Source: Acidobacteriota bacterium (lineage in GTDB: Bacteria; Acidobacteriota; Terriglobia; Terriglobales; Acidobacteriaceae). From it: a stretch of DNA of 47,564 nt. Each line of letters opens with the position of its first letter. Positions within the stretch are counted from its first letter, which is position 1. Positions 6,233 to 7,716 of this stretch are shown here, piece by piece. Position numbers and translations under genes: made by a program. The notes beneath the pieces are model-generated. The model was not told where the DNA came from, searched no databases, and worked only from the letters and a program-made list of their open reading frames with translations. Where the stretch lies: the NCBI GenBank assembly GCA_003225495.1, contig QIAJ01000018.1, positions 1-47,564 on the forward strand, written 5' to 3'.

Positions 6233-7264
6233 TCACGCCGCTTGACCTGCCTTCATGCCAGCCAGCGGACGTAGCGGAGCGCAAAGACCCCGCATTACCT
6301 TCTCAAATTGCGTCAGGTCGAGCGACTGCGGTCCGTCGGACAATGCGCGTTCGGGGCACGGGTGGACTTCGATGATGATCCCATCAGCACCGACCGCGAT
6401 GGCGGCACGCGCGACCGCGCCGATCAGGCTCTGTTTGCCGGTTCCGTGGGACGGATCAGCCATGACCGGCAGGTGCGAGAGTTCTTTGGCCAATGCGATG
6501 GAGGCGAGATCGATTGTGTTCCTAGTGGCGGTTTCGAAGGTCTTAATGCCGCGTTCGCACAAGACGACCTGATTGTTGCCGCCGGAAAGCAGGTATTCTG
6601 CCGCCAGGAGCCACTCCTTAACGATGGCAGAGGGGCCTCGCTTGATTAGAATCGGCTTGTTGGTAGTTGCGAGACGCCGGAGCAAGGCAAAGTTCTGCAT
6701 GTTGCGGGCTCCAACTTGAAGCATGTCGGCGTATTCGCAGATTACGTCAACATCTTCGGTGCTCATCACTTCGGTGACGACTGGCAAGCCGGTTTGTTCG
6801 CGGGCCTCGCCCAAAATTTTCAACGCTTCGATTCCTAAGCCCTGGAACTCGTAAGGAGAAGTACGCGGCTTGTATGCGCCTCCGCGGAGCATTGTGGCTC
6901 CGGCACGCTTGACGCCGTGAGCCGTTTCGAGCAGCTGTTCGCGGGACTCGACCGAGCAGGGGCCTGCGATCACCACCACTTCTTCTCCACCAATCTTCAC
7001 GCCGCCTACGTTGACGATGGACGGTTCGGGTCGCGTCTGACGGCTTACCAGTTTGAAAGGCTGGGCGATGGCGACCACAGTGTCGACGCCGGGAGCAACG
7101 GAAAGAGCTTCGATCTCGTGGCGACGTCCGCCGCTGCCTACGGCGGCGACAATGGTCCGCTCGGTTCCGCGCGTGATGTGGGGCTGGAAGCCTGCCTCCC
7201 GGATCCGGTGAATGACGTGCTCGATTTGCTCAGGGGTAGCGCTGTCCGACATATTTACGATCAT
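6233..7264 (-). CDS. aroF: 3-deoxy-7-phosphoheptulonate (DAHP) synthase, type I
   Basis: A 343-residue enzyme condensing phosphoenolpyruvate and erythrose 4-phosphate, the first step of the shikimate pathway to Phe, Tyr and Trp. Residues 1-70 form a ferredoxin-like regulatory domain as in Thermotoga-type DAHP synthases. The barrel follows with IAGPCSVES (metal-ligand Cys103), [45 protein letters not shown] and EVHPCPE. ATG 7264 is chosen because AAGGAG lies eight bases before it; an in-frame codon at 7294 lies inside the upstream terminator and is rejected. It is preceded by a leader that looks like an aromatic amino-acid attenuator, so expression is probably set by transcription termination as well as by allosteric feedback. 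Confidence 0.95.
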
Positions 7265-7286
7265 GGAAGAACTCCTTTCGAGTCTC

Positions 7287-7318
7287 AAAAACAAAAAGCC
7301 GCGATCTGTGATCGCGGC
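7287..7318 (-). terminator. Attenuator terminator (3:4 hairpin) of the aroF leader
   Basis: A perfect 9-bp stem with a 3-base loop (7298-7306 with 7310-7318), followed on the minus strand by TTTTTGTTTTT. It sits about 30 bases before the aroF start codon, downstream of the leader ORF, which is where a transcription attenuator belongs rather than at the end of a gene. Confidence 0.8.
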
Positions 7319-7420
7319 CTCGGTGCTGAACTTTGAGCAGTGTCTTTTAAGCTGACTTGCTCCAGTCTTGCACCTCCGCCGCAGATGTAAACCAAAAGCG
7401 GCTAAATCGGATGGAGGTGC
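7314..7420 (-). promoter_or_regulatory. Competing 1:2 and 2:3 RNA hairpins of the aroF leader
   Basis: Region 1 (GCACCTCC 7420-7413 plus GCCGC 7402-7398) pairs with region 2 (GCGGC 7382-7378 plus GGAGGTGC 7377-7370). The same region 2 can instead pair with region 3: GCGGC with GCCGC (7318-7314) and GGTG with CACC (7325-7322), with a 3x3 internal loop between. Region 3 is the 5' arm of the terminator. The 1:2 / 2:3 / 3:4 exclusivity is the hallmark of amino-acid attenuators of the trp/phe kind. Seen by hand pairing only, with no folding energies computed. Confidence 0.65.
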
Positions 7421-7433
7421 TAAATCGTGTCAT
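7347..7433 (-). CDS. Putative aromatic-rich leader peptide of aroF
   Basis: A 28-codon frame, ATG 7433 to TAA 7347, containing four Phe before a tight cluster Phe13-Trp14-Phe15 (the last two counted Phe are in that cluster) and another Trp at codon 24. The control cluster lies directly after the region 1 GCCGC (codons 11-12), so a ribosome stalled there would cover region 1, free region 2 and favour the antiterminator. The stop is 21 bases before region 3. No strong Shine-Dalgarno is seen before the ATG, only GGA. Too short to judge by coding statistics; support comes from its fit with the hairpins. Confidence 0.6.
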
Positions 7434-7468: not shown

Positions 7469-7636
7469 CTACTGGCTAAGCGAGTTTGCAACACTGGAGA
7501 ATGCGTTATTTGCATTACTCCCAATCAGACGCACCGTACCGATCACCAAGACCAGTATAACGGCTAGCATCACTGCATACTCAGCGATGTCCTGCCCCTC
7601 GTCTGCAGACCATAAATTTCGACAAATCTGAAGCAT
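7469..7636 (-). CDS. Flp/Fap-type pilin subunit
   Basis: A 55-residue protein. A short N-terminal leader is followed by EGQDIAEYAVMLAVILVLVIGTVRLIG, described here by parts: the EGQD...EYA box and a hydrophobic helix of about 20 residues, then a polar tail (NNAFSSVANSLSQ). This matches Flp pilins of Tad type IVb pili, which are cut by a prepilin peptidase near the Gly and polymerised through the hydrophobic helix. ATG 7636 is chosen because GGAGG sits five bases upstream; the frame extends further but without a site. No other tad/cpa genes are in the window, so the assembly machinery must be elsewhere. Confidence 0.85.
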   Translation of the reverse strand: MLQICRNLWSADEGQDIAEYAVMLAVILVLVIGTVRLIGSNANNAFSSVANSLSQ

Positions 7637-7687: not shown

Positions 7688-7716
7688 ATAATGCCGACTC
7701 AGAACCAGATTGTCAA
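7688..7716 (-). promoter_or_regulatory. Sigma70-like promoter of the flp pilin gene
   Basis: On the minus strand a perfect -35 TTGACA (7716-7711), a 17-base spacer and CATTAT (7693-7688). It gives a leader of about 45 bases containing the GGAGG site of the pilin gene. Confidence 0.6.

Follow-up and report, generated by a model that had tools for sequence, protein, structure and literature searches.

The analysed stretch of DNA (the window) comprises 47,564 nucleotides of contig QIAJ01000018.1 from an Acidobacteriota bacterium and harbours, on its minus strand, an aroF gene whose product is a 3-deoxy-7-phosphoheptulonate (DAHP) synthase of the PRK08673/TIGR01361 type (NCBIfam NF006421, 479.2 bits; TIGR01361, 388.8 bits; Pfam DAHP_synth_1 and DAHP_snth_FXD). 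In 5' to 3' order, the region upstream of aroF consists of a small pilin-like gene (flp), a 35-nt spacer between the flp stop codon and the ATG of a leader ORF, the leader ORF itself with a hairpin (1:2) inside it, a third pairing region, a terminator and the Shine-Dalgarno (SD) sequence of aroF. The features, all on the minus strand, are the following:

7688..7716, minus strand: predicted sigma-70 promoter of flp, by consensus match only (TTGACA at 7716-7711, 17-nt spacer, CATTAT at 7693-7688)
7469..7636, minus strand: flp, a 55-aa Flp/Fap-pilin-like gene (weak Pfam Flp_Fap match and synteny)
7347..7433, minus strand: leader ORF of 28 codons plus TAA, without SD (ORF reading)
7398..7420, minus strand: region 1, GCACCTCC (7420-7413) and GCCGC (7402-7398) (sequence, folds)
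7389..7397, minus strand: control codons Phe-Trp-Phe, codons 13-15 of the leader ORF (sequence)
7370..7382, minus strand: region 2, GCGGCGGAGGTGC (sequence, shuffle and co-variation tests, folds)
7314..7326, minus strand: region 3, GCACCGAGGCCGC (shuffle and co-variation tests, folds)
7298..7318, minus strand: terminator hairpin GCCGCGATC-ACA-GATCGCGGC, 9 bp (sequence, fold)
7287..7297, minus strand: U-tract TTTTTGTTTTT (sequence)
7272..7278, minus strand: SD of aroF, AAAGGAG (sequence)
6233..7264, minus strand: aroF, DAHP synthase with an N-terminal ferredoxin-like domain (NCBIfam, Pfam)

The original prediction, an aromatic amino acid attenuator at 7287-7433, had listed a 28-codon ORF with a Phe-Trp-Phe cluster, hairpin 1:2 (8+5 bp), a competing pairing 2:3 and a 9-bp terminator with a U-tract just before the SD of the DAHP synthase gene, and all of these are present. 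Hairpin 1:2 is formed by GCACCTCC/GGAGGTGC (8 bp) and GCCGC/GCGGC (5 bp), its segment folding at -25.5 kcal/mol, and the Phe-Trp-Phe codons were correctly placed directly after region 1: they lie in the loop of 1:2, adjoining the inner arm of region 1 on its 3' side. Pairing 2:3 combines GCGGC/GCCGC with a second helix on the other side of a 3x3 loop (GGA x GAG); this helix, claimed as the 4-bp GGTG/CACC, exists but is 5 bp long (GGTGC/GCACC). The fold of the 2:3 segment, which includes additional inner pairs, has -33.6 kcal/mol. Region 3, the antiterminator partner of region 2, also holds the start of the 5' arm of the terminator, the segment of which folds at -17.1 kcal/mol; the presence of an intrinsic terminator with a U-tract between the leader ORF and aroF is read from sequence and fold. 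The fold of the 156-nt leader has a z-score of -4.6, with none of 200 shuffles as good, and, taken separately, pairing 2:3 (p = 0.005, the lowest value that the test can give) and pairing 1:2 (p = 0.04) of this leader are both stronger than in shuffles.

We propose that aroF is very probably controlled by a Yanofsky-type, ribosome-mediated transcription attenuator that senses the aromatic supply, a grading that leaves aside any part played by flp. The proposal draws on the computed anatomy, its conservation, the co-varying pairings, an aromatic codon bias confined to the stretch before region 2 and the promoter pattern. RNA polymerase would transcribe the leader ORF with a ribosome trailing behind. 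When charged tRNA-Phe, tRNA-Tyr and tRNA-Trp are ample, the ribosome would pass the aromatic codons and cover region 2, and the 3:4 terminator would form before aroF; an untranslated leader would form 1:2, and termination would be expected there too. When tRNA-Phe or tRNA-Trp (in most relatives tRNA-Tyr too) is scarce, the ribosome would stall just past region 1 and mask it, region 2 would pair with region 3, the terminator would not form and aroF would be made. In the trp and pheA attenuators of enterobacteria, which are built of 1:2, 2:3 and a 3:4 terminator, stalling at the control codons likewise masks region 1. The leader studied here shares with them the four-region logic and the placement of the control codons, but in its family several aromatic amino acids are encoded instead of one, the control codons are part of the 1:2 loop, and both an SD before the leader ORF and a match to an Rfam family are lacking. 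The aroF gene of Escherichia coli is known mainly for its control by TyrR.

Orthologues were drawn from 61 genomes and from 80 named loci (those ranking best among 131 relatives), the latter being mostly metagenome-assembled Acidobacteriota (labelled Terriglobia, Acidobacteriaceae, Candidatus Sulfotelmatobacter etc.), with the most distant ones belonging to other phyla. The resulting 114 loci gave 111 upstream regions (L095, L102 and L005 were skipped as partial), 92 of them distinct. With a scan rule that asks for at least four aromatic residues in 12 codons and then a terminator, within 750 nt, leader and terminator were found in 62 of the 73 distinct upstreams of orthologues with at least 67% identity (window included) and in 0/73 of their reverse complements; a stricter rule, with at least five aromatics, gave 50/73 and 0/73, respectively. 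As to the 11 upstreams missed, in L082, L083 and L092 the leader lies some 1.4 kb upstream, beyond the reach of the 750-nt scan; L090, L099 and L100 have an aromatic ORF, but the rule called no terminator there; L106 is masked by Ns; L097 and L098 offer 131 nt and 1,141 nt of upstream sequence only; the leader of L074 exists but escapes the rule, and in L088 nothing was seen. The set used for statistics consists of 60 leaders, the window's included (identity at least 67%, leader and terminator called), from which L106 and L056 (a wrong ORF call in both, and Ns in L106) and L099 (different terminator) had been dropped by hand; it was split at 86% aroF identity into 17 close and 43 diverged leaders. 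A redundancy filter left 56 leaders, 55 of which entered the covariance alignment (L049 was left out). Since the sequences are related, counts of loci are not independent of each other.

By RNAalifold, the joint alignment yielded the terminator only. The diverged group yielded the terminator, with two-sided changes at 5 of its 11 pairs, and a 6-bp core of 2:3, while no common 1:2 helix was obtained from this group as one alignment; 16 close leaders gave 1:2, 2:3 and the terminator with few two-sided changes (1/16, 2/13). These results being limited, per-sequence shuffle tests and swapped-partner permutations were used. Pairing 2:3 was stronger than in dinucleotide shuffles (200, p ≤ 0.05) in 50 of the 60 leaders and pairing 1:2 in 46. 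Exchanging a partner arm for that of another species cost pairing energy, with p = 0.0005 for both 1:2 and 2:3 among the 43 diverged leaders and p = 0.008 for 2:3 among the 17 close ones, in which co-variation of 1:2 was not significant (p = 0.13); the leaders are related by descent, and the p-values of all these pairing tests take no account of kinship. The original prediction had tied its fate in part to the conservation of the pairing and of the aromatic codons in relatives; both were found conserved, which supports the attenuator reading.

Across the 60 leaders, Phe, Tyr and Trp codons account for 362 of 1084 codons before the start of region 2 and for 14 of 701 after it, a placement that fits a stalled ribosome that would mask region 1 and not region 2. 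These counts are inflated, aromatic content having been one of the criteria in choosing the leader ORFs; the abrupt drop at region 2 is beyond what the choice of ORF alone explains. The other two reading frames contain 138 aromatic codons in 1800 over the first 48 nt. The aromatic content peaks in the codons just before region 2, reaching 88% at offset -4. Phe, the commonest aromatic residue before region 2 (234 of the 362 codons), is accompanied there by Tyr and Trp in 42 leaders, by Tyr in 13 and by Trp in two, and occurs alone in three; Tyr and Trp are concentrated in the last seven codons before region 2. The mixed Phe/Trp control cluster originally proposed holds for the window's leader, which has no Tyr codons, but this composition is unusual in the family, the window being one of the two such cases. 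TTT makes up 190 of the 234 Phe codons in the leaders compared to 114 of 391 in aroF.

The distance between the leader ATG and region 2 is a multiple of three (51, 54, 57 or 60 nt) in 53 of the 60 leaders. A test of third-position variability was negative both in close leaders (n = 16; 0.157, 0.245 and 0.182 at positions 1, 2 and 3) and in diverged ones (n = 37; 0.515, 0.612 and 0.521), and because third positions are not the most variable, the ordinary support for translation from synonymous substitutions is missing. The aroF gene has its own SD and the leader ORF has none: pairing with the anti-SD at -5 kcal/mol or better was found for 7/60 leader ORFs, 51/300 shuffles and 54/60 aroF starts. 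Conservation begins at the leader ATG, upstream positions having at most 0.34 bit except position -2 (0.66), and the codons after the ATG are conserved. On this lack of an SD, and on the adjoining pilin-like gene upstream, the original prediction was silent.

A Flp-like gene, encoding a small protein of the EYAVMLAVILVLV type, was found upstream of the leader in 51 of the 59 loci (out of 60) that had enough upstream DNA, ending 32-156 nt before the leader ATG. The match to Pfam Flp_Fap is weak (E = 0.0042 and 17.3 bits in the window, below the gathering score of 32.2; 14.4, 19.4 and 16.4 bits in three relatives), hence "Flp-like" is the safe name. An SD precedes flp in 45/51 loci, and a promoter-like site above the 95% null was found upstream of flp in 51/51, with an exact TTGACA in 50/51; the threshold was derived from 70-nt shuffles and the flp upstreams are 140 nt long, but against a matched 140-nt null all 51 remain above threshold, and an exact TTGACA occurs in the best shuffled site in 11/1020. 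In 50 of the 51 loci the interval from flp to the leader showed no terminator. Promoters of the leader itself were scored in 56 of the 60 loci, and a site above the 95% null was found in 11, all but one of which have a -10 box that ends 8-17 nt upstream of the ATG; over all 56 leaders, a -10 box is not enriched near the ATG (17/56 within 4-14 nt, compared to 25% in shuffles). By eye, L082 and L083 show a similar site (TTGACA and TATAGT, 10 nt ahead of the leader start codon). In lineages where a promoter of this kind adjoins the leader, the transcript probably starts at the ATG or within a few bases of it.

These sites are unevenly distributed: a promoter-like site of the leader's own was found in 1 of 46 loci in which flp is less than 90 nt away and in 10 of 13 loci in which flp was not found or lies at least 98 nt away (Fisher p = 4.7e-8 for sigma-70-like sites above threshold, a value that is too optimistic because the clades are few). 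The window's leader has no promoter of its own above threshold. The predicted TTGACA promoter of flp, together with the lack of an own site in leaders close to flp, suggests a flp-leader-aroF transcription unit; most simply, the leader in the lineage of the window is probably transcribed from the flp promoter. If so, the attenuator would therefore also be a regulated end of the pilin mRNA. It is conceivable, although we would give it somewhat less than an even chance, that the attenuator has been captured by the pilin gene, with a single unit driven by the flp promoter, the attenuator acting as the regulated 3' terminus of the pilin message, and a leader ORF without SD that is read by ribosomes just done with the pilin; under this reading, aroF would be expressed by starvation-gated read-through from a surface-structure gene. 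Four loci that have both flp and a promoter-like site before the leader (L048, L052, L053 and L072) could be intermediate stages. A literature search found no paper linking a Flp pilin with aroF.

The aromatic leader with its terminator that is located about 1.4 kb before aroF in L082, L083 and L092 (Pyrinomonas methylaliphatogenes K22) stands ahead of genes for chorismate mutase and prephenate dehydratase (Pfam CM_2 and PDT, confirmed for L082 and L092), and in L030 a leader and a terminator are found about as far upstream. Because the element also precedes this chorismate mutase - prephenate dehydratase - aroF arrangement, it is tied to the pathway and not to flp. Among loci with less than 67% identity, 7/16 passed the scan, including a Clostridia match (L111) that is probably spurious. 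Five distant acidobacteriotal DAHP synthase genes (L027, L028, L029, L032 and L104) have a short aromatic leader and a terminator upstream. In three planctomycetes (L108, L110 and L113), aromatic short ORFs (e.g. FGFYFYFY, YYWWFSF) were observed before a DAHP synthase gene, the terminator rule being passed by L113 only.

Among 100 further upstreams of DAHP-synthase-like genes across the phylum (taken from the matches listed, a non-random sample with many paralogues, L153 and L175 being short), a leader was found within 750 nt in five, and in 0/100 reverse complements and 0/500 shuffles; the looser rule (at least four aromatics) gave the same five matches and 1/100 reverse complements. A longer scan, up to about 2.9 kb, found a leader in 3/20 upstreams, two of them already among the five; the third (G135) shares its leader with L092, and the two are probably one genome. 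The element is characteristic of the aroF subfamily of the window and patchy and scattered elsewhere in the phylum. Leaders of other composition were also seen: in L215 and L220 (genomes G087 and G099) a Trp-rich one (NWFWWPWHF or NWFWWSWRF), with a terminator, precedes a DAHP-synthase gene that is more distant, and in L165 (genome G160) a DAHP-synthase gene is preceded by a Tyr-rich one (VYYYYSSY) and a terminator-like stem of 16 bp.

The covariance model (R1), which rests mostly on sequence (10 base pairs), matched 27 of the 61 genomes, 24 of them at E = 1.3e-11 or better, most of the matched loci having trained the model. In the window's genome it found one full-length match, namely this leader (the window is in the training set), and one weak partial match (E = 0.155), which is the same terminator on the opposite strand. 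Four same-genus genomes without a match (G005, G009, G014 and G022) have no close orthologue, since none of their AroF matches is better than 7e-107. In one genome with 6% contamination, a second match to the model (G003:C110:14653-14813, E = 8e-7) was observed by a second aroF-like gene of 72% identity. Four more DAHP-synthase-like matches are present in the window's genome, including a weak one with an internal stop (L005); no leader was found upstream of the other three paralogues, and no attenuator was seen by eye in about 390 nt upstream of trpE.

The hairpin might be merely the ordinary terminator of the flp mRNA, with the ORF, 1:2 and 2:3 incidental to it, since flp, read in the same direction, stops 35 nt before the leader, and in nearly all loci with flp no terminator was found between the two. 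We regard this as very improbable. Leaders and terminators of the same kind occur at loci in which no flp was found, most of which have a promoter-like site next to the leader, and the element also stands ahead of the chorismate mutase and prephenate dehydratase genes that precede aroF in L082, L083 and L092; furthermore, the competing pairings co-vary and the aromatic codons stop at region 2. Even slightly less credible is a leader that binds a ligand or a protein (riboswitch, T-box or TRAP-like) instead of a stalling ribosome. A structured 5' leader with terminator and antiterminator would fit any such class, but no Rfam family, including the amino-acid leaders (Trp leader, Phe leader and others), was matched at gathering score, and at E ≤ 5 nothing relevant appeared, the best chance match being sX2 (E = 1.7). 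The alignment, inspected by eye, has no conserved core outside the pairing arms and the terminator, and the aromatic ORF would stay unexplained.

Two further possibilities are variants compatible with the attenuator, and we consider each of them rather doubtful. The attenuator may answer one tRNA only, most likely tRNA-Phe, the Trp and Tyr codons being passengers. In Corynebacterium glutamicum, the leader peptide AroR, with a Phe-Tyr-Phe motif, precedes a DAHP synthase gene (aroR-aroF) subject to transcription attenuation (Mentz 2013, PMC4046766; PMC11802643), and a review reports a response to Phe and not to Tyr (PMC11802643, citing Neshat 2014); the presence of a codon is therefore no proof that its tRNA matters. 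The predominance of Phe before region 2 and the lack of Tyr in the window's leader point the same way, but most leaders keep Phe, Tyr and Trp, with Tyr and Trp clustered immediately before region 2. Alternatively, the leader may have its own promoter in the flp-linked lineages too, and aroF would be independent of flp. The onset of conservation at the leader ATG, as in a leaderless transcript, and the position of the -10 box in the strong sites agree with this, and a promoter that is not sigma-70-like would escape our scan, which covers sigma-70-like sites only; against it stand the contrast between loci near flp and the others and the lack of -10 enrichment over the 56 leaders.

Among known systems, C. 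glutamicum aroR-aroF resembles the attenuator proposed here in the mixed aromatic codons of its leader peptide, in the DAHP synthase gene and in transcription attenuation, and differs from it in belonging to another phylum and, in the passages cited, in a reported motif devoid of Trp and in that a pilin-like gene is not mentioned. The trpL attenuator RNA of Sinorhizobium meliloti is described as starting with its ATG (PMC7298713), a leaderless ORF like that expected for relatives with a leader-adjacent promoter; by that description it is concerned with Trp only, whereas the leader in the window's lineage seems to lie inside a longer transcript. The Shewanella aroF is tabled as an "attenuator sensing tyr-tRNA" (PMC2659441 Table 3, citing Camakaris 1980 on E. 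coli aroF-tyrA), and by this table row it would likewise be a DAHP synthase gene under control linked to Tyr-tRNA. The original prediction knew of no described case on an acidobacterial aroF, and our literature search found none for Acidobacteriota (word searches did not find aroF in PMC2965389 or aromatic amino acids in PMC4833913); the comparative study of Lopatovskaya 2010, outside that search, may bear on priority, and for the mixed aromatic control of a DAHP synthase gene C. glutamicum aroR-aroF is a precedent.

The class of attenuator and a DAHP synthase gene under mixed aromatic control are thus already known; less usual are the leader ORF without SD and the site behind a pilin-like gene, which together would make a variant attenuator if experiments confirm both. 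In these soil Acidobacteriota, a shortage of aromatic amino acids very probably switches on the first enzyme of their synthesis, and the attenuator may also end the mRNA of the pilin-like gene. The family invites the questions of how as many as three amino acids can be sensed by one attenuator, how a leader ORF lacking an SD comes to be translated and how attenuation works within a transcript that possibly begins with a pilin-like gene.
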